This document shows positions 11,130 through 50,036 of a stretch of 64,000 nucleotides of DNA, in pieces. Origin of the DNA: Rhabdothermincola sediminis (GTDB taxonomy: Bacteria; Actinomycetota; Acidimicrobiia; Acidimicrobiales; Acidimicrobilacustridaceae); NCBI RefSeq assembly GCF_014805525.1, contig NZ_JACFSZ010000006.1, forward strand, positions 62,001 through 126,000. The letters run 5' to 3'. The notes beneath the pieces were generated by a model. It was given only the letters and a program-made list of their open reading frames with translations. It searched no databases and was not told the DNA's origin. Position 1 is the first letter of the stretch. Each line of letters begins with the position of its first letter. A program made the position numbers and the translations under genes.

Positions 11130-11519
11130 TCACCCGGCGTGGTTGATCAGGTGGCGGGCCGCTCGCCGGAAGTAGTCGAGCACCAGCGCCTCGTCGTCGG
11201 GATCGAGCCCACCGTCGCGCACCGCCGACTCCATGTGCAGGTACCACGCGGCCGCCTCCACCGGGCCGATGGCGAAGGGCGCGTGGCGCATGCGCAGTCG
11301 CGGGTGGCCCCGCTGCTGGCTGTAGGTGGCGGGACCGCCCCAGTACTGGACCAGGAATGCCGCCAGGTGCTCCCGTGACTCCCGCAGGTCCTCGGGGTAG
11401 AGCGGACGCAGGACCGGATCGGTCGCCACCCCGCCGTAGAACCGCTCCACCAGCGCCTCGAACCAGGCTCGGCCCCCCACCCGCTCGTACAGGCTCCCGG
11501 CGACGAACTCCTCGCTCAC
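11130..11519 (-). CDS. glbO: group II truncated hemoglobin
   Basis: The 129-residue 2-over-2 globin binds heme and oxygen. Recognisable features are the B-helix SLYERVGG...FEALVERFY with TyrB10, the LRPLYPEDL segment, and QYWGGPATYSQQRGHPRLRMRHAPF, a hallmark of group II (HbO) proteins that contains the proximal-His region. AAWYLHM holds the TrpG8 typical of groups II and III. The GTG at 11519 is 8 bases after TACCGT, part of an element shared with divergent accD. A 17-bp hairpin follows the stop. In Mycobacterium, GlbO associates with membranes and aids respiration; here that is only a possibility. Confidence 0.93.
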   Translation of the reverse strand: MSEEFVAGSLYERVGGRAWFEALVERFYGGVATDPVLRPLYPEDLRESREHLAAFLVQYWGGPATYSQQRGHPRLRMRHAPFAIGPVEAAAWYLHMESAVRDGGLDPDDEALVLDYFRRAARHLINHAG

Positions 11520-11527
11520 GGGCGCGC

Positions 11528-11537
11528 ACGGTAGCGT
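11528..11537. promoter_or_regulatory. shared bidirectional -10 of glbO and the carboxylase operon
   Basis: ACGGTAGCGT reads TACCGT on the minus strand (8 bases before glbO GTG) and TAGCGT on the plus strand (8 bases before the carboxylase beta ATG). Both use the same central TA. Confidence 0.55.
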
Positions 11538-11545
11538 GCCGGCCG

Positions 11546-13144
11546 ATGGGGGCCTCACCACCGACCACGATCGACCCGCGGTCGGAGGCGTTCCGCGCCA
11601 ACCGGGAGGCGATGATGGCCCTGCTCGACGAGGTACGCGCCGCCGAGGCCCGGGTGCTCGCCGGCGGCGGCGATCGCTACGTCCGGCGCCACCGCCAACG
11701 GGGCAAGTTGCTCGTGCGAGAGCGCATCGACCTGCTCGTGGACCGCGACAGCCCGTTCCTGGAGCTCTCCGCGCTGGCCGGCTGGGGCACCGACGACCCG
11801 CTCGGCGGGGCGATGGTCACCGGCATCGGGCAGATCGCCGGGGTCGAGTGTGTGATCAGCGCCAACGACCCGACGGTGAAGGGAGGCACCTCCTCCCCCA
11901 CGACCATCGCCAAGTCCCTGCGGGCTCAGGAGATCGCGCTCCGCAACCGCCTGCCGGTGGTCAACCTGACCGAGTCCGGTGGCGCCGACCTCCCCAAGCA
12001 GGCCGACGTGTTCGTCCCGGGCGGCGCCACCTTCAAGAACCTCACCCGCCTGTCGGCCGCCGGCATCCCGACCGTCACCCTGGTGTTCGGCTCGTCGACG
12101 GCCGGTGGGGCCTACGTGCCGGGCATGAGCGACTACACGGTGTTCGTGGAGGGGGGCGCCAAGGTGTTCCTGGGCGGCCCTCCCCTGGTGAAGATGGCCA
12201 TCGACGAGGACGCCGACGAGGAGCAGCTCGGCGGCGCCGAGATGCACGCCCGGGTCTCCGGCCTCGCCGACTTCCTGGCCGCGAACGAGCACGACGCCCT
12301 CCGCCTGGGCCGCACGATCGTTCGACGGTTGGGCTGGCGGAAGGCTGGTCCCCCACCGAGGGGTCCGGGCGCGCCGCCGCGCCTGGACCCCGAGGAGCTG
12401 CTGGGGGTCGCGCCGGCCGACGTGCGGATCCCCTTCGACGCCCGGGAGGTGCTCTGGCGGGTGGTCGACGACAGCAACTTCGACGAGTTCAAACCGCTCT
12501 ACGGGAGCCAGCTCGTGTGTGGCTGGGCCGAGCTGTGGGGCTACCCCATCGGCATCCTGGCCAACAACGGGATCTTGTTCTCCGAGGAATCGCAGAAGGG
12601 TGCGCAGTTCATCCAGCTGTGCAACCGCAGCGACACCCCGCTGCTGTTCGTGCAGAACGTCACCGGGTTCATGGTGGGCACCCGCTACGAGCGAGGCGGG
12701 ATCATCAAGCACGGCTCGATGCTCATCAACGCGGTCTCCAACTCCCGGGTCCCCCACCTCACCCTGATGATCGGGGCCTCCTACGGCGCCGGCAACTACG
12801 GGATGTCCGGCCGGGCGTACGACCCCCGGTTCGTGTTCAGCTGGCCCAACCACCGCAGCGCGGTGATGGGCCCGAAGCAGCTCGCGGGGGTGATGTCGAT
12901 CGTCCAGCGGGCCGCGGCCACTCGGGCCGGGCGGGACTACGACGAGGACGCCGACCGCACGATGCGGGCGGCGATCGAAGACCAGATCGAGCGGGAGTCG
13001 ACCGCCCTGTTCGCCACGGGTCGCCTGTGGGACGACGGCATCATCGACCCCCGCGACACCCGCACCGTCCTGGGCATCGCCCTGTCCGTCACCCACTCCG
13101 CTCCCGTGCAGGGCGCGGAGGCCTTCGGCGTGTTCCGGATGTGA
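11546..13144 (+). CDS. acyl-CoA carboxylase, carboxyltransferase (beta) subunit
   Basis: A 532-residue crotonase-fold carboxyltransferase. It begins ASPPTTIDPRSEAFRANREAM, as methylcrotonyl-, geranyl- and propionyl-CoA carboxylase beta chains do. It has the paired oxyanion segments SGGADLPKQADVF...GSSTAGGAYVPGMSDY in the N-domain and NVTGFMVGTRYERGGIIKHG and GASYGAGNYGMSGRAYDPRF in the C-domain. The last two resemble MccB and AtuC more than AccD of fatty-acid synthesis. It is followed after one base by the biotin-carrying alpha subunit. The AtuA neighbour favours a branched or unsaturated acyl-CoA substrate, which is inference. The start ATG is 8 bases after TAGCGT. Confidence 0.92.
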   Translation: MGASPPTTIDPRSEAFRANREAMMALLDEVRAAEARVLAGGGDRYVRRHRQRGKLLVRERIDLLVDRDSPFLELSALAGWGTDDPLGGAMVTGIGQIAGVECVISANDPTVKGGTSSPTTIAKSLRAQEIALRNRLPVVNLTESGGADLPKQADVFVPGGATFKNLTRLSAAGIPTVTLVFGSSTAGGAYVPGMSDYTVFVEGGAKVFLGGPPLVKMAIDEDADEEQLGGAEMHARVSGLADFLAANEHDALRLGRTIVRRLGWRKAGPPPRGPGAPPRLDPEELLGVAPADVRIPFDAREVLWRVVDDSNFDEFKPLYGSQLVCGWAELWGYPIGILANNGILFSEESQKGAQFIQLCNRSDTPLLFVQNVTGFMVGTRYERGGIIKHGSMLINAVSNSRVPHLTLMIGASYGAGNYGMSGRAYDPRFVFSWPNHRSAVMGPKQLAGVMSIVQRAAATRAGRDYDEDADRTMRAAIEDQIERESTALFATGRLWDDGIIDPRDTRTVLGIALSVTHSAPVQGAEAFGVFRM

Positions 13145-26995: not shown

Positions 26996-27340
26996 TCAGA
27001 GATAGAGGCCGGTGCTGCCTTCTTCGAGCCGCCTGGCGGCCACGGCGTGCACGTCACGCTCCCGGAGGATGATGTAGTCCTCGCCGCGCACCTCGACCTC
27101 GTAGCGGTCCTCGGGGTTGAAGAGCACTTGGTCGCCGGACTCCATGTTGCGGACGTTGGGCCCGACCGCGACCACCTCGGCCCACACGAGTCGCTTGCCC
27201 ATCTGCGCCGTGGCGGGGATGAGGATGCCTCCGGTGGAGCGCCGCTCCCCTTCGGGCCCGCCCGTCTTCACGAGGATCCGATCGTTCATCATCTTGATCG
27301 GAAGCTTCTCGTCGTCGCCCGACCCGGTCTCCGCTGTCAC
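26996..27340 (-). CDS. GroES-like co-chaperonin
   Basis: A 114-residue protein with the GroES beta-barrel: MMNDRILVKTGG, the mobile-loop-like ERRSTGGILIPATAQ, then WAEVVAVGPN, GDQVLFNPEDRYEVEVRGEDYIILRERDV. It differs from standard GroES in a 16-residue acidic N-terminus, if the GTG at 27340 is used, and in a C-terminal tail RLEEGSTGLYL. No groEL is next to it. It may be a second, specialised GroES. An alternative start is MMND at residue 17. The GTG is 7 bases after TACCGT in the element shared with the divergent hydrolase. Confidence 0.85.
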   Translation of the reverse strand: MTAETGSGDDEKLPIKMMNDRILVKTGGPEGERRSTGGILIPATAQMGKRLVWAEVVAVGPNVRNMESGDQVLFNPEDRYEVEVRGEDYIILRERDVHAVAARRLEEGSTGLYL

Positions 27341-27347
27341 GGCTCCG

Positions 27348-27357
27348 ACGGTACCGT
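27348..27357. promoter_or_regulatory. perfectly palindromic bidirectional -10
   Basis: ACGGTACCGT is its own complement, so TACCGT occurs on both strands: 7 bases before the GroES-like GTG (minus) and 8 bases before the hydrolase GTG (plus). The genes start only 26 bases apart, so one open complex could serve either direction. Confidence 0.6.
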
Positions 27358-27365
27358 CTCTGCCC

Positions 27366-28001
27366 GTGGCTGACGACTCGCTGGTGTTGCGCACCGCCGA
27401 CGGCCTGGCCCTGGAGGCCGAGATGCGGGCACCCGAGCACGCCACGGCGTCGGTGGTGCTCGCCCACCCGCACCCCCTCCACGGCGGCTCGATGCGCTCA
27501 GTGGTGACCAGCGAGCTGTTCCGGTTGCTGCCCGGATCGGGGATCGTCGTCCTGCGGTTCAACTTCCGGGGGGTGGAGGGTTCGGAGGGCAGCCACGGCG
27601 GTGGGGTCGACGAAGCGCTCGACCTGGTCGCGGCCCTCGACGCCCTGGAAGCGGCCGGCGCCCCGGCGCCGCTCGGCGTCGTCGGATGGTCCTTCGGTGG
27701 CGACGTGTCCCTGAGCGTGGTCGACGAGCGGATCGACGGGTGGGTGCCAGTGGCGCCCACGCTGCGGGTGCTCCCCCCCGAGGCGCTGCTGGCCGCTCGT
27801 GACCCCCGCGCCAAGCACCTGATCGTCCCCGAACACGACCAGTTCCGCCCTCCGGCGGCCGCCACGGAGGCCACCGCGGGTTGGCTGAACACCACCATCG
27901 ACACCGTGGCCGGCGCGGATCACTTCCTGCTGGGGCGGACCGACGTGCTGGCCTCGCTCGTGCGCCGGCGCGTCGGCGACCTGCCCCGCCGCGCAGGCTG
28001 A
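27366..28001 (+). CDS. alpha/beta hydrolase (COG2945-like)
   Basis: The 211-residue hydrolase has the N-terminal signature VVLAHPHPLHGGSM, which forms the oxyanion hole in the COG2945 group, then LRFNFRGVEGSEG and the nucleophile elbow VVGWSFGGD. A late Asp (PEHDQF) and a His (AGADHFLLG) complete the triad. There is no signal peptide, so it is cytosolic. Substrate unknown; relatives are esterases of small acyl groups. Starting at the GTG at 27366, it is the only plus-strand gene in the his/trp block. Its stop lies three bases from the convergent hisF. Confidence 0.85.
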   Translation: MADDSLVLRTADGLALEAEMRAPEHATASVVLAHPHPLHGGSMRSVVTSELFRLLPGSGIVVLRFNFRGVEGSEGSHGGGVDEALDLVAALDALEAAGAPAPLGVVGWSFGGDVSLSVVDERIDGWVPVAPTLRVLPPEALLAARDPRAKHLIVPEHDQFRPPAAATEATAGWLNTTIDTVAGADHFLLGRTDVLASLVRRRVGDLPRRAG

Positions 28002-34414: not shown

Positions 34415-35146
34415 ATGCTCGCGCTGGCCGCCGAACCACCTCTGGCAGATGCCCGCCCGGCCAACGAGCTCGCCGCCATCGAACAGGCCCTCGCCGAGCT
34501 CGACCACCGGGACCTCCCGGACCGTGGCGCGGCGCTCCTGCGGCAGGCGGCCGAGCTGGCCCGAGCCGCGGGCTCGGTGCTGCGCCTGGAGGCGCAGCCC
34601 TCACCGGCCGAGCTCGACGCCGCCGCCACCAGGGCAGGCCTCCAGCTCACCCGTGACCTGCTCCAGCTCCGGCGCCCGCTCCCGATCGCCGAGCACACCG
34701 ACCTGCCCGTTCGGGCCTTCGTGCCCGATCAGGACGAACCGGCGTGGCTCGAGCTGAACAACCGGGCGTTCGCCTGGCATCCCGACCAGGCGGGCTGGTC
34801 GGTCGCCGACCTTCGGACCCGCGAGCGTGAGCCCTGGTTCGATCCCCGGGGCTTCCTCCTCCACGAGCGCGACGGCCGCCTCGTCGGCTTCTGCTGGACC
34901 AAGGTCCATCGGGACGAGCAGCGACCGATCGGCGAGATCTACGTGATCGCGGTCGACCCGGCCTTCCACGGCCGGGGGCTCGGCCGGGAGCTGGCCATCG
35001 CCGGGCTCGAGCACCTCGGTTCGCTCGGACTCGACACGGCCATGCTGTACGTGGAGGCCAACAACGAGCCGGCCCTGGCGCTGTACCGGTCCCTGGGCTT
35101 CGAGCACCACCACTCCCATCGCTGGTACCGCTCCGGCGGGCCGTAG
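34415..35146 (+). CDS. mshD: mycothiol synthase (N-acetyltransferase)
   Basis: MshD adds acetyl to Cys-GlcN-Ins, the last step of mycothiol synthesis. The 243-residue protein has the MshD pattern in its C-terminal GNAT domain: ELNNRAFAWHPDQAGW, GFCWTKVHRDEQRPIGEIYVIAVDPAFHGRGLGRELA (acetyl-CoA loop GRGLG) and VEANNEPALALYRSLGFE. Mycobacterial MshD has about 300-320 residues with two GNAT domains. Here the N-terminal one is shortened to a mostly helical, weakly recognisable 80 residues. Its stop codon TAG is also the first half of the rlmN -10 hexamer. Confidence 0.88.
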   Translation: MLALAAEPPLADARPANELAAIEQALAELDHRDLPDRGAALLRQAAELARAAGSVLRLEAQPSPAELDAAATRAGLQLTRDLLQLRRPLPIAEHTDLPVRAFVPDQDEPAWLELNNRAFAWHPDQAGWSVADLRTREREPWFDPRGFLLHERDGRLVGFCWTKVHRDEQRPIGEIYVIAVDPAFHGRGLGRELAIAGLEHLGSLGLDTAMLYVEANNEPALALYRSLGFEHHHSHRWYRSGGP

Positions 35147-35149
35147 CCT
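35144..35149 (+). promoter_or_regulatory. predicted -10 (TAGCCT) of rlmN, built on the mshD stop codon
   Basis: 8 bases before the rlmN GTG; its first three bases are the mshD TAG. Confidence 0.45.
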
Positions 35150-35157
35150 GAGGGGCC

Positions 35158-36216
35158 GTGGTGTCCCTGTACGACCTGGACCGGGCCGACCTGGCGCGGG
35201 TGCTCGACGGCGAGCCGCGCTACCGGGTGGACCAGGTCTGGTCGGGCCTGCACCGCAAGGCCCGGTTGCCCGAGGAGCTGACCGACGTGCCGAAGGCGAT
35301 CCGGGCGTCGCTGGCGGCGGCCCACCCACCCGCGCTGGTCGAGATGGGCCGGATGGTGACCGACCAGGGTGACACCGTGAAGTGGCTCTGGCGGTTGCCC
35401 GACGGCAAGCGGGTCGAGACCGTGCTGATGCACTACCCGGACCGCTCCACGGTGTGCGTGAGCACGCAAGCCGGCTGCGCGATGGGCTGCGGCTTCTGCG
35501 CCACGGGGCAGGCAGGGTTCGATCGGCAGCTCAGCACCGGTGAGATCGTGGAGCAGGTGATCCGGGCCGCCCGGGAGGCGGCGCCACGCCGGGTGTCGAA
35601 CGTCGTGTTCATGGGCATGGGTGAACCGCTGGCCAACTACGACGCCACCTGGGCGGCGATCGAACGGCTCCACGATGCCGTGGGCATCTCGGCCCGCCAC
35701 CTCACGGTGTCGACTGTCGGGATCGTCCCCGGCATCCGCCGGCTCGCCCGAGAGGCGCTCCCGGTGAACCTCGCGGTCTCGCTGCACGCCGCGAACGACC
35801 GGCTGCGCGACGAGCTGGTGCCGATCAACCGCCGCTACCCGCTGGCCGACCTGGCGGCGGCGTGCCGGGACCACGTGGCGGCGACGAACCGGAGGCTGTC
35901 CTTCGAGTGGGCCCTCATCGACGGGGTCAACGACCGGCTTGACGATGCCCGGGAACTGGCCGCCCTGGCCCGTGAGCTACGGGCACACGTGAATCTGATC
36001 CCCCTCAACCCCACACCGGGCTACCCCACCCGCGGCACGCCCCCGGCCCGGGTACGGGACTTCGCGGCGCGGCTGCGATCGCTCGGCGTGAACGCGACGG
36101 TGCGGGCCAACCGGGGTGGCGACATCGACGCCGCCTGCGGACAGCTGCGCGCCGCCCAGGCCGGCTCACCCCGGGAGCCGGGCCAGCCAGTGACCCTCAG
36201 CGAACGAGCACGGTGA
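35158..36216 (+). CDS. rlmN: dual-specificity 23S rRNA/tRNA adenine-C2 methyltransferase
   Basis: The 352-residue radical SAM enzyme methylates A2503 of 23S rRNA and A37 of some tRNAs. The iron-sulfur ligands are in AGCAMGCGFCATGQAGF (C-x3-C-x2-C) and the methyl-carrying Cys is in GGDIDAACGQL near the end. VVFMGMGEPLANYD and HLTVSTVGIVPGIRRLA are further RlmN signatures. The first GTG at 35158 is taken as start since it lies 8 bases after TAGCCT. The 3' end overlaps the convergent nucleotidyltransferase by 20 bases. Confidence 0.95.
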   Translation: MVSLYDLDRADLARVLDGEPRYRVDQVWSGLHRKARLPEELTDVPKAIRASLAAAHPPALVEMGRMVTDQGDTVKWLWRLPDGKRVETVLMHYPDRSTVCVSTQAGCAMGCGFCATGQAGFDRQLSTGEIVEQVIRAAREAAPRRVSNVVFMGMGEPLANYDATWAAIERLHDAVGISARHLTVSTVGIVPGIRRLAREALPVNLAVSLHAANDRLRDELVPINRRYPLADLAAACRDHVAATNRRLSFEWALIDGVNDRLDDARELAALARELRAHVNLIPLNPTPGYPTRGTPPARVRDFAARLRSLGVNATVRANRGGDIDAACGQLRAAQAGSPREPGQPVTLSERAR

Positions 36217-36991
36217 CCCGCTCCGCGGCCCGGACCGCCCGCTCGAGTAGTTCTGCAGGCGCCACCTCCACACCGGCCCAGAGCACCGAGTCCCGCACCG
36301 TCCCGGCCACCCTGGCCTCCTCGCCGATCACCGACCGCTCGACCGACCCGCTCACCTGCGCAGTGGGGGCGACGATCGACCCCGCGCTCCGATCGGCGGC
36401 GAGCAGGTTCGCCCGGAGGTACCCGGCGGGGGTCCCGCAGTCCACGACCGGGCCGGGATGACCGACGACCTCGACCCGCCCCGCGTCGTCGGCGGCCGCC
36501 CAGCACCGCTCGTAGAGCCCCGAGGGCTCCGGGCTGAGCGCCGCGACGTCGGCCCAGGGCATCAGGGCGGCCGCCACCACCATGCGAGGGCCGAACACGG
36601 GCTGGCCCCCCACCAGCAGACGGACCCGCTCACCGTCCCAACCGGCCACGAAGGCGGCGAGGTCCGCCTCGGCCCAGGTGTCTGCGTTCACGACCAGGGT
36701 GCCGCGCCCGCCGATCCAGTCCCGCAGCTTCCCCAGCGCTCCGGCCGTGCCCAGCGCCTGCTCCGCCTCCACCGACAGGTGCACGCCGGGATGGTTGGCG
36801 GCGAGGTGGTCCTCTAGAGCCGCCCGGCCGTGATGGACGTTCACCGAGCAGGCTGCCGCGGCACGCCCGGCGCGCTCGAGGGCCAGGTCGAGCAGTGGAA
36901 CCCCCCCGACGGGGCACAGTGGCTTCGGCCGCACCAGGGTGAGAGGGCGGAGCCGCCGGCCCTCGCCGGCCGCCAGCACCACGGCGACCAC
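36197..36991 (-). CDS. sugar-phosphate nucleotidyltransferase
   Basis: The enzyme has a Rossmann-like nucleotidyltransferase domain: VVAVVLAAGEGRRLRPLT with the nucleotide loop, RPKPLCPVGGVPLLDLAL, and VVNADTWAE as the metal-binding segment. A short left-handed-helix tail follows (SIVAPTAQVSGSVERSVIGE...DSVLWAGVEV). Relatives are GDP-mannose or ADP/dTDP-glucose pyrophosphorylases; the nucleotide cannot be decided. The start is taken at the GTG at 36991, just before the fold begins. The ATG at 37039 is an alternative that would share its CATG with the divergent gene at 37038. Confidence 0.85.
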   Translation of the reverse strand: MVAVVLAAGEGRRLRPLTLVRPKPLCPVGGVPLLDLALERAGRAAAACSVNVHHGRAALEDHLAANHPGVHLSVEAEQALGTAGALGKLRDWIGGRGTLVVNADTWAEADLAAFVAGWDGERVRLLVGGQPVFGPRMVVAAALMPWADVAALSPEPSGLYERCWAAADDAGRVEVVGHPGPVVDCGTPAGYLRANLLAADRSAGSIVAPTAQVSGSVERSVIGEEARVAGTVRDSVLWAGVEVAPAELLERAVRAAERVTVLVR

Positions 36992-37037
36992 CTCGCCGAG
37001 GTACGCAGACCGGTGGCTTGCTGCCAGACTGTCACCC

Positions 37038-37403
37038 ATGGAAACCCGCCGGTGGACCAATCCATCGCAACCCCAGACCCTGTACGTGGCCGTGATCCTG
37101 CTCTACCTGAACGCGGTGTTGGGGTTGCTGTTCGGCGGGTTCGCGAGCCCGATCGCCCTGCTGGTCATCATCGGGCAGATCGCCGGCGGCCTGGGCATCG
37201 CCAACGAGAAGAAGTGGGGCTACGTCCTCGCGGTGGCGGTGGCCACCGTGTCGCTGCTGTTCGGGGTGGTGCTCCCGCTCGTCGGCAGGCTCACCATCAT
37301 CTTCGACCCGGTCTTCCTGATCGGCGCGATCTTCCCCATCGCGCTGTTCGCCCTGCTCGTGCACCCCATGAGCCGCGACTACCAGCGGGTCTGGTTCAAA
37401 TAG
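37038..37403 (+). CDS. multi-pass membrane protein of unknown function (121 aa)
   Basis: After a short polar N-terminus (ETRRWTNPSQPQ) there are about four hydrophobic helices: TLYVAVILLYLNAVLGLLFG, IALLVIIGQIAGGLGIA, YVLAVAVATVSLLFGVVLPL and FLIGAIFPIALFALLVH. The end is basic and polar (PMSRDYQRVWFK), facing the cytosol by the positive-inside rule. No catalytic or transport motif is recognised. CAGACT stands seven bases before the ATG, a variant of the local -10. It is divergent from the nucleotidyltransferase, with no functional hint. Confidence 0.75.
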   Translation: METRRWTNPSQPQTLYVAVILLYLNAVLGLLFGGFASPIALLVIIGQIAGGLGIANEKKWGYVLAVAVATVSLLFGVVLPLVGRLTIIFDPVFLIGAIFPIALFALLVHPMSRDYQRVWFK

Positions 37404-47575: not shown

Positions 47576-49241
47576 TCGCGGCGTGCAGGCCGTCGTGGAC
47601 GGCGACGTTGGCCGCGCGATCGGTCCCGGCCACCACCACGTGCGGGCCGCCGGCAGCCAACCGGTCCCGGATCGCGTCGCGCAACCCGGCGCGATCCTCC
47701 ACCTGCACCGCGGGGAGACCGTGGACGGCAGCCAGCGAGCACGGGTCCACTCCGTGCGGGGTGCCGAACAGTCGCTCGAAGACGGGCTGGGGCAATGACC
47801 GGGCCTGGGGGAGGAAGGAGAAGATCCCCCCGCCGTCGTTGTGCACCACGATCACCACCAGGTCGACCGGGCGAGTGGCCAACCCGAGCAACGCGTTGGC
47901 GTCGTGCAGGAAGGCGAGGTCACCCACCAGCGCAGCGGTGGGCCCTGCGCCCAGGGCGACACCCACCGCGGTGGAGACCACTCCGTCGATCCCATTCGCA
48001 CCCCGGTTGGCGAGGACCCGCAACCCGTCCCGGGGAGCGGCGTACCACTCGACGTCGCGCACCGGCATCGAGGAGGACACCACCATCGTGGCCCCCTCGG
48101 GCAGCGCCGCGGCCACATCCCGGGCGATCGCAGGCTCCGAGAGCCCGTCGCCGAGCGACGCCTCGATCGCTTCGGCGGCAACCCGGTCGAGGTCCTGCCA
48201 GAGGCGCGACCACTCCCGATCGACCACCTCCCCTTCGAGCTGTGCTGCCAACTCGAGACACACCCAGGCCGGATCGGCGGCGGCGACCATGCCCGCGTCG
48301 TGATCGGGATCGAACCACCCGCCGTGCGCATCGATCACCACCTGGAGGGCGTCGCTGCGGGCCAGCCACGAGGCGAGCGCCTTGGACGCGGGCGGCATGC
48401 CGAGCCGCAGCACCACCTGCGGCTGGAGCTGGTCGCCGTCTCGCAACAGGGCGTCGAAATGAGCGACCACTGCCCGATCGGGGATGCGACACCCGCTGCG
48501 CGGGTCGGCCAACACCGGCCATCCCAAGGTGTGCGCGAGCACGAGCACCGCCTCCGGGCGGCTGATACCCGCTCCGGCCACGAGCACCCCGCGCAGGCCC
48601 CGGCAGTGCTCCGCCAGCCGCCGGAGGGAGGCGTGATCGAGATGGCGCTCCGTGACCAGGCCCTCGTGCCAGGGCAGCCCTGCTTCCCGGCCGGCGGGGA
48701 GCTCGCCGGGATCCCCGAGAAGCGGCTCCCGGAACGCCAGGTTCAGGTGCACGGGACCGGGGGGCGAGCCGGTCGCCTTCACGTACGCCCGGGAGGCGAG
48801 CGAGCGCCAGGTGCCTGCGGTCGCGGCATCGGGGGGGCCGGGGTCGGCGGCCCACCGCACCACGCCACCGAACAGCCCGGTCTGCTCGATCGTCTGCGGG
48901 GCGCCGACCCCGTGCAGCTCCGGGGGACGATCGGCCGTGCAGGCGATCAGCGGCACCCGGTTGTGGGCGGCCTCGACGACCGCGGGATGCAGTTCGACGG
49001 CCGCGGTTCCGCTGGTGGTGAGAACCACCGCCGGGCGCCCGGTCGCCGCCCCGACGCCGAGGGCGATGAAGGCCGCCACCCGCTCGTCGTGGTGCACCTC
49101 CACCTGCAGGCGCCCGTCCCGGGCCAACGCCAGCGCCAGGGGGGTGGAGCGAGACCCGGGGCAGACCACGGCGTGCGTCACCCCACAACGGACCAGCTCG
49201 TCGACGAGCGTTGCGCAGAAGCTGGCCGCGACGGCTGTCAC
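47553..49241 (-). CDS. menD: SEPHCHC synthase
   Basis: The 562-residue thiamine diphosphate enzyme joins isochorismate and 2-oxoglutarate. It has VVCPGSRSTPLALALARDG, the TPP-activating EVHHDERVAAFIALG, HLNLAFREPLLGD and the diphosphate and metal site LVGDLAFLHDANALLGL with VHNDGGGIFSFLPQA. These match MenD throughout. GTG at 49241 lies 6 bases after TAGGCT, in an element shared with divergent menH. Its product is the MenH substrate, so the divergent pair encodes successive steps. Confidence 0.95.
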   Translation of the reverse strand: MTAVAASFCATLVDELVRCGVTHAVVCPGSRSTPLALALARDGRLQVEVHHDERVAAFIALGVGAATGRPAVVLTTSGTAAVELHPAVVEAAHNRVPLIACTADRPPELHGVGAPQTIEQTGLFGGVVRWAADPGPPDAATAGTWRSLASRAYVKATGSPPGPVHLNLAFREPLLGDPGELPAGREAGLPWHEGLVTERHLDHASLRRLAEHCRGLRGVLVAGAGISRPEAVLVLAHTLGWPVLADPRSGCRIPDRAVVAHFDALLRDGDQLQPQVVLRLGMPPASKALASWLARSDALQVVIDAHGGWFDPDHDAGMVAAADPAWVCLELAAQLEGEVVDREWSRLWQDLDRVAAEAIEASLGDGLSEPAIARDVAAALPEGATMVVSSSMPVRDVEWYAAPRDGLRVLANRGANGIDGVVSTAVGVALGAGPTAALVGDLAFLHDANALLGLATRPVDLVVIVVHNDGGGIFSFLPQARSLPQPVFERLFGTPHGVDPCSLAAVHGLPAVQVEDRAGLRDAIRDRLAAGGPHVVVAGTDRAANVAVHDGLHAAIRAARSR

Positions 49242-49247
49242 GACGAC

Positions 49248-49257
49248 AGCCTACGGT
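49248..49257. promoter_or_regulatory. shared bidirectional -10 of menD and menH
   Basis: AGCCTACGGT reads TAGGCT on the minus strand (6 bases before menD) and TACGGT on the plus strand (8 bases before menH), sharing one TA step. Confidence 0.55.
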
Positions 49258-49265
49258 TTCGCACC

Positions 49266-50036
49266 ATGGCACCCGTGCTGCACACCGAGGTGAGGGGGCA
49301 GGGCGGCCCACGCCTGGTGCTGGTCCATGGTTTCACCCAGACCGGGCACTGCTGGTCACCGATCGACGAGGACCTGGCCCGGGATCACGAGGTCGTGGTG
49401 GTCGACGCGCCGGGCCACGGCGGGTCGTCGCAGGTGCGGGCCGGCGTCGCCGGAGCCGCCCAGCTGCTCGGCCGCGCCGGCGGCCGGGCCACCTACCTCG
49501 GCTACTCGATGGGCGGACGGATCGCACTCTTCCTGGCGGTCGAGCGCCCCGAGCTGGTCGAGCGACTGGTGCTGATCGGGGCGTCGCCGGGCATCGAGCG
49601 AGCGGACGAGCGTGCCGCCCGGCGAGACGCCGACGAGCGGCTGGCAGCACGCCTCGAGACGATCGGGCTGGCTGCCTTCCTGGACGAGTGGCTCTCGCAG
49701 CCTTTCTTCGCCGGGCTCGACGAGCGAGCCGCGCACCGCCGAGAGCGGCTCCGCAACACCGTGGAGGGCCTCGCCGCCAGTCTCCGACTCGCCGGTGTCG
49801 GAACGCAGCCGTCCCTCTGGCACCGGCTGCCCGAGCTGTCGATGCCCGTCCTGCTGGTGGCGGGGTCCCGCGACCAGAAGTTCCGCTCCCAGGCAGAGCG
49901 GGCGGGCGACCTGATCGGCGAGCGGGCTTCCGTCGCGATCATCGAGGGGGCGGGCCACGCCGCCCACCTCGAACGACCCGACGCCTTCGTAGCGCTGGTG
50001 CGGGACTGGCTGGTGCGGACCCCCGTCAGGCACTGA
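49266..50036 (+). CDS. menH: SHCHC synthase-like alpha/beta hydrolase
   Basis: A 256-residue alpha/beta hydrolase that eliminates pyruvate from SEPHCHC. It has LVLVHGFTQTGHCW, VVDAPGHGGSS, the nucleophile elbow YLGYSMGGRIALFLAVERP and the late RDQKF Asp and GAGHAAHLERP His. HGFTQTG and GYSMGGR are typical of MenH. Its divergent partner is menD, the previous step, which supports the call. The 3' end overlaps the convergent menA gene by 11 bases. Confidence 0.88.
   Translation: MAPVLHTEVRGQGGPRLVLVHGFTQTGHCWSPIDEDLARDHEVVVVDAPGHGGSSQVRAGVAGAAQLLGRAGGRATYLGYSMGGRIALFLAVERPELVERLVLIGASPGIERADERAARRDADERLAARLETIGLAAFLDEWLSQPFFAGLDERAAHRRERLRNTVEGLAASLRLAGVGTQPSLWHRLPELSMPVLLVAGSRDQKFRSQAERAGDLIGERASVAIIEGAGHAAHLERPDAFVALVRDWLVRTPVRH

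Follow-up and report, generated by a model that had tools for sequence, protein, structure and literature searches.

As Warman et al. 2021 reportedly found, bacterial bidirectional promoters arise from symmetry of the -10 element. The published definition of such promoters is that their divergent transcription starts lie 7-25 bp apart, and on the Escherichia coli and Salmonella chromosomes they are reported to be most frequent between divergent genes (PMC10268837). The commonest distance between divergent starts is given as 18 bp, 10 and 23 bp being common as well; polymerases are described as unable to bind in both orientations simultaneously, and although basal transcription was too low for competition at all five E. 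coli bidirectional promoters tested, strong activation of one direction could repress the other (PMC12825309). Leaderless promoters of Actinobacteria, for their part, are reported to place TANNNT some 12 bases upstream of the start codon and, in Mycobacterium tuberculosis, to have no conserved -35 element and a hexamer often preceded by CGN (PMC3160421, PMC3898074). Closely juxtaposed divergent promoters are said to be common in M. tuberculosis, where prpD (Rv1130) and Rv1129c are adjacent divergent leaderless genes (PMC3898074). Here we compare with these systems a 25-bp gap between a GroES-like gene and an alpha/beta hydrolase gene of Rhabdothermincola sediminis, located in contig NZ_JACFSZ010000006.1 (positions 62,001 to 126,000; this whole 64,000-nt stretch is the window, to which coordinates refer unless otherwise stated). 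Judged from its sequence and from that of its relatives, the gap is very probably a bidirectional promoter of sigma-A (housekeeping) type, conserved and leaderless on both sides, in the known 23-bp symmetry register.

The GroES-like (Cpn10) gene occupies positions 26996-27340 on the minus strand and starts with GTG (27340-27338); the hydrolase gene occupies 27366-28001 on the plus strand and also starts with GTG (27366-27368), so that positions 27341-27365 are the entire gap between the two start codons. Within it lies a perfect palindrome, which a previous reading made from these letters alone (the sequence-only reading) had placed at 27348-27357: these ten bases, ACGGTACCGT, are indeed self-complementary, but they are flanked by G and C and the palindrome is 12 bp long, GACGGTACCGTC (27347-27358), with the ANNNTANNNT core as its inner ten bases. 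TACCGT appears twice, as the same reading had it within the 25-base gap: on the plus strand at 27352-27357, ending 8 bases before the hydrolase GTG, and on the minus strand at 27348-27353, ending 7 bases before the GroES-like GTG. The central TA belongs to both hexamers, which overlap there. The Shine-Dalgarno motifs AGGAG, GGAGG and GAGGT occur on neither strand of the gap. Both flanking frames have the appearance of genuine genes: the product of the GroES-like one matches Pfam Cpn10 at 69.1 bits (cut-off 21.1, E 3e-19) and the hydrolase product matches Hydrolase_4, though barely above the cut-off (27.1 vs 27 bits, E 3e-6). Cpn10 is encoded once more in the genome, by a gene with a stronger match (114 bits), so the GroES-like gene at 27340, the second copy, is a paralogue.

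The promoter would work through opposite-strand TANNNT hexamers that overlap at the TA of ANNNTANNNT, allowing RNA polymerase to load either way on one melting site. The central TA would be -12/-11 for both directions, and sigma-A holoenzyme would nucleate melting there in either orientation. Transcription is predicted to start at each GTG or within about 3 bases of it, giving two leaderless mRNAs and making the 25-bp gap promoter core throughout; the site would have room for a single polymerase at any moment, and its two transcripts would diverge without overlap. By arithmetic the starts should be 23 bp apart at optimal spacing and 26 bp apart if they fall exactly on the GTGs, the latter value lying just beyond the 7-25 bp of the reported definition (PMC10268837). 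The sequence-only reading also had the two starts excluding each other. As to occupancy this holds, because the geometry of the shared site would impose steric exclusion, in keeping with the published account of the polymerases (PMC12825309); it does not imply a functional either/or, since with basal transcription as low as that reported from E. coli, either/or expression or a permanent toggle would not be the default expectation.

Set beside the described systems, the locus would resemble the E. coli and Salmonella bidirectional promoters in having one -10 region read on both strands in mutually exclusive orientations, and it likewise lies between divergent genes (PMC10268837). Its TA overlap matches the 23-bp register reported as common (PMC12825309), unlike the commonest published register, that of 18 bp with -7T and -11A reciprocally paired, which is not used here. 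Like the leaderless TANNNT promoters of Actinobacteria (PMC3160421, PMC3898074) it places a hexamer about 12 bases before the start; unlike ordinary promoters of that kind, two appear fused on a single TA. With prpD (Rv1130)/Rv1129c it would share divergent neighbours that are both leaderless, but in contrast to the arrangement proposed here, the part of PMC3898074 available to us makes no statement of a common -10. Screening of open-licence literature by title and abstract opening turned up nothing on this locus or on doubly leaderless bacterial bidirectional promoters; what would be new here is a known symmetry type in a doubly leaderless, long-kept form.

The spacing of the two hexamers is that of the genome at large. 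We sampled 20 stretches of 20 kb (400 kb) which, with the window, gave 464 kb and 427 genes called with a custom coding model. The frequency of TANNNT before 1542 candidate starts peaks at spacers of 6, 7, 8 and 9 bases (26, 26, 32 and 9 cases), against a background of about 3 per position at spacers 12-40; 93 genes (49 with ATG, 44 with GTG) have the hexamer 6-9 bases before the start where about 13 are expected. TANNNT at this distance is a general leaderless signal of the genome, and the GroES-like and hydrolase genes conform to it. The mirror base, the outer A or T by which a -10 would also serve the opposite strand, is found in only 4 of the sample's 87 one-way leaderless promoters and in 6 of 6 positions of the three shared pairs, the latter by definition. 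We make no claim that one-way promoters avoid the mirror A (4/87, binomial p 0.004 vs base frequency), since the controls (2/48) behave alike, and we dropped one for an extended -10, CG preceding TA in 28/87 one-way leaderless promoters vs 11/48 control sites.

Conservation was assessed in two collections of relatives. One was based on the hydrolase (the best 80 of 112 relatives; 61 genomes, 48 matched, 30 loci, with 14 further regions added), the other on the GroES-like protein (22 genomes without a hydrolase match, with a weaker one, or incomplete, two of which, G042 and G048, turned out to carry the pair). We searched for in-frame starts with a -10 at spacers of 5-9, removed identical sequences and kept GroES-like identities of at least 55%; of the resulting 65 rows, 46 had a head-to-head hydrolase no more than 400 bp away and 19 did not. 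At 44 of the 46 head-to-head loci a single ANNNTANNNT serves the in-frame starts to its left and right, with -10 elements of opposite strands overlapping in a defined register; since the class is defined by its outer A, central TA and outer T, these do not vary among the 44, and 44/46 is the fair figure. Spacing varies little: on the GroES side it is 6 bases in 26 loci, 7 in 17 and 8 in one, and on the hydrolase side 8 in 39, 9 in two, and 7, 6 and 5 in one each. The core is ACGGTACCGT in 37 loci, ACGCTACCGT in three, and ACGCTAGCGT, ACGGTAGCGT, AAGGTACCTT and AGGGTACCGT in one each. Its columns carry 1.56-2.00 bits of information, compared with 0.13-0.58 bits in the middle of each linker; conservation extends to the bases adjacent to the core (1.2-1.5 bits) and also to the start codons. 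The full 10-bp palindrome is present in 39 of the 44 (the 37 with ACGGTACCGT and those with ACGCTAGCGT and AAGGTACCTT), while the five with imperfect palindromes retain ANNNTANNNT.

When 198 further genomes of the class were drawn, 102 of them had the hydrolase, and 26 new loci were inspected among the 30 loci listed. Two of them (L263 and L276) are further adjacent GroES/hydrolase loci with a common core, bringing the total to 46 of 48 distinct loci; in a third (L257) the GroES gene is 869 bp from the hydrolase, and we left it unclassified; the remaining 23 have no GroES-like gene in the fetched flank. Among the loci that share the core, hydrolase identity falls as low as 39%.

Loci in which the partner is missing provide the counterpart. 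Of the 19 GroES loci without a head-to-head hydrolase, 17 have a GroES -10 (L170 and L171 are doubtful), and one of the two that lack it (L177) consists of no more than a C-terminal fragment. Twelve of these 17 elements lack the mirror T through which a gene to the right would be served. In the two head-to-head loci that are split (L025 and L141), each gene has a separate -10 and the mirror base is missing from both. Association of mirror base with partner gives a Fisher p of 2e-7 by locus, a count that ignores relatedness, and 0.047 by family (4/5 vs 4/16), where loci on named contigs of unknown family and the single non-adjacent genome of family f1 are left out. Loss of the mirror base mostly follows absence of the partner. 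With the conserved core, its near-fixed spacing and the TANNNT signal, this makes the central proposal of the sequence-only reading, one -10 read both ways for two leaderless genes, well supported as a reading of the comparisons.

That reading had further called the pair an extreme case, but it has company: the same architecture recurs at two other pairs in the window and at one pair elsewhere in the genome. The 464 kb contain 57 divergent pairs, 12 of them with two leaderless starts and three with a common symmetric core; these three (starts at 11519/11546, 27340/27366 and 49241/49266) are all in the window, none being found in the other 400 kb. In the first, ACGGTAGCGT (11528-11537, spacing 8/8) lies between genes that we take, from their sequences and not from a family search, to encode a truncated-haemoglobin-like protein (minus strand, GTG at 11519) and a carboxyltransferase-like protein (plus strand, ATG at 11546). 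In the third, AGCCTACGGT (49248-49257, spacing 6/8) lies between presumed MenD-like (minus strand, GTG at 49241) and MenH-like (plus strand, ATG at 49266) genes, named on the same basis; menD and menH are menaquinone synthesis genes. A fourth shared symmetric -10, AGCCTACGCT, with spacers 6/8 and two good coding frames, is present elsewhere in the genome (L186, C9:44957). At L269, in a different genome of the class and among the 23 loci in which no GroES-like gene was found, the hydrolase has a symmetric core in common with a different divergent frame (AGCCTACGCT, 9/6), which suggests an independent origin of the arrangement; L270, likewise among the 23, is a borderline symmetric case with spacers 10/6.

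Thirty loci were compared, by script count, for each of the other two window pairs. The haemoglobin and carboxyltransferase genes are head to head within 400 bp in four loci and have a common core only in R. sediminis itself; the other three (L192, L193 and L208) are all split, with the mirror base on neither -10. The menD and menH genes are head to head in 28 loci, sharing a core in one (spacers up to 9) or four (10 allowed) and split in 19, none of which has the mirror A on its menH -10. Both pairs are less deeply conserved in the shared state than GroES/hydrolase, being mostly split in relatives. In genus g12 the menD loci L239-L244 and L246-L250 keep AGCCTACGGT at the menD -10, although a separate TACGCT, some 25 bases beyond, serves as the menH -10.

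The genome contains ACGGTACCGT three times in its 3.29 Mb, as often as a reversed control (3). One of the other copies (L001, C5:164344) serves as a one-way leaderless -10, with TACCGT 6 bases before the ATG of what is presumably a hisG-like gene; the divergent neighbour has, by eye, its own TAAGCT 7 bases before an ATG. The third copy (L003) is within long open frames. The 18-bp type of symmetry, TANNNTA between divergent starts 15-30 bases apart, was found in none of the 57 sampled pairs.

Several observations weigh against the proposed bidirectional promoter. The mirror T is retained in five of the 17 GroES loci without an adjacent hydrolase (L154, L160, L161, L164 and L169); in two of these (L154 and L161) the symmetric core and a downstream ATG are still present, and they may be relics of a hydrolase lost, as it seems, recently. 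The menD -10 of split loci keeps its mirror T in 12 of 19, 11 of them in genus g12, although menH is served by a separate -10; promoter symmetry can thus persist without evident use, and this runs counter to a strict rule of loss, recency of the split or residual rightward use being possible accounts. The scarcity of mirror A in one-way promoters is not specific to promoters, control TANNNT sites having it at a similar frequency (2/48). The shared loci belong mostly to one family, so their sequences are not independent, and the family-level test is marginal. Genome-wide, the one-sided pattern of core, 8 bases and RTG is not enriched, with 18 matches vs 27 in the reversed control. Four of the 18 come from the three window pairs; the other 14 consist of the shared pair L186, ten one-way starts, one match with a start in the opposite direction only (L185) and two without a coding frame.

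The alternative that best withstands these data concerns the meaning of the anatomy: two one-way promoters may simply coincide on one TA, with no coupling and no benefit beyond compactness. It is a version of the bidirectional promoter that denies a benefit of sharing, so that its probability is not to be added to that of the promoter itself, and we consider it a serious possibility, somewhat short of even. Each half of the core follows the general leaderless rule, imperfect palindromes are tolerated, and split states occur (L025, L141, L192, L193, L208 and the 19 menD/menH loci), to which may be added the reported lack of competition at basal levels in E. coli (PMC12825309). What coincidence leaves unexplained is the sharing at 46 of 48 loci despite hydrolase identity down to 39%, where other pairs do separate. 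The opposite view, that sharing is a selected device in the Acidimicrobiales, we put forward tentatively, as rather unlikely: the choice of orientation on a single TA would set the GroES-like/hydrolase ratio or lower noise, selection would keep one melting site here although other pairs separate, and the device would have arisen more than once.

Very unlikely, by comparison, is a promoter that works in a single direction, with a mirrored half owed to chance and common descent. The loci are indeed related by descent, and a mirror T without evident use occurs in the 5/17 non-adjacent GroES loci and 12/19 split menD loci just described, but the middles of the linkers have diverged while both outer bases remain in 44 of 46 loci, start codons stand at leaderless distance on either side, and it is mostly where the partner is absent that the base has been lost.

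Operators classically take the form of a perfect palindrome, such as this one of 12 bp, between divergent genes, and this, with complete 10-bp palindromicity in 39 of 44 loci, argues for a dimeric transcription factor acting on both genes through this site, the overlap with promoters being incidental. An operator should nevertheless remain whole after one gene departs, and in the hydrolase-less GroES loci the other half is lost in 12 of 17 and kept in five; the distance from palindrome to start equals the -10 distance at both codons; five of 44 palindromes are imperfect while still keeping ANNNTANNNT; and there is no sign of a regulon, ACGGTACCGT occurring 72 times in 37 genomes of the family vs 85 times for the reversed control, with 35 of the 72 copies, matched by hand, being this locus. 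With the unused half mostly lost without the partner and the copies not enriched, we rejected the operator as the principal account and rate it the least likely of the three, very unlikely, although a local operator confined to this one site may exist. As for a chance palindrome, expected in a 25-bp gap of the sampled base composition at about 3% for 10 bp and 0.8% for 12 bp, a lone instance is only mildly unusual and a single-gap probability of about 1% decides nothing either way, the matter being settled by conservation in relatives.

The authors of the E. coli and Salmonella studies propose that bidirectional promoters are gradually removed or altered (PMC10268837, PMC12825309). Comparative genomics offers a natural experiment here: one orthologous promoter can be followed through loci where it is shared, where it has separated and where a single partner is left, and the mirror base is mostly retained in the first case and missing in the others. 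The distinction between selected and accidental promoter symmetry becomes testable by altering 27348 or 27357 singly, and the 25-bp gap is a minimal test piece in which two genes would have their signals for starting transcription and translation at the same place.

Two further observations concern other parts of the window. At 34764-35242 ARAGORN reports a permuted transfer-messenger RNA (tmRNA) with an odd tag which overlaps a called gene (34415-35146) and is likely a false positive. At 37037-37040 two divergent ATG starts overlap in CATG, the genes assigned by our custom caller being 36200-37039 on the minus strand and 37038-37403 on the plus strand.
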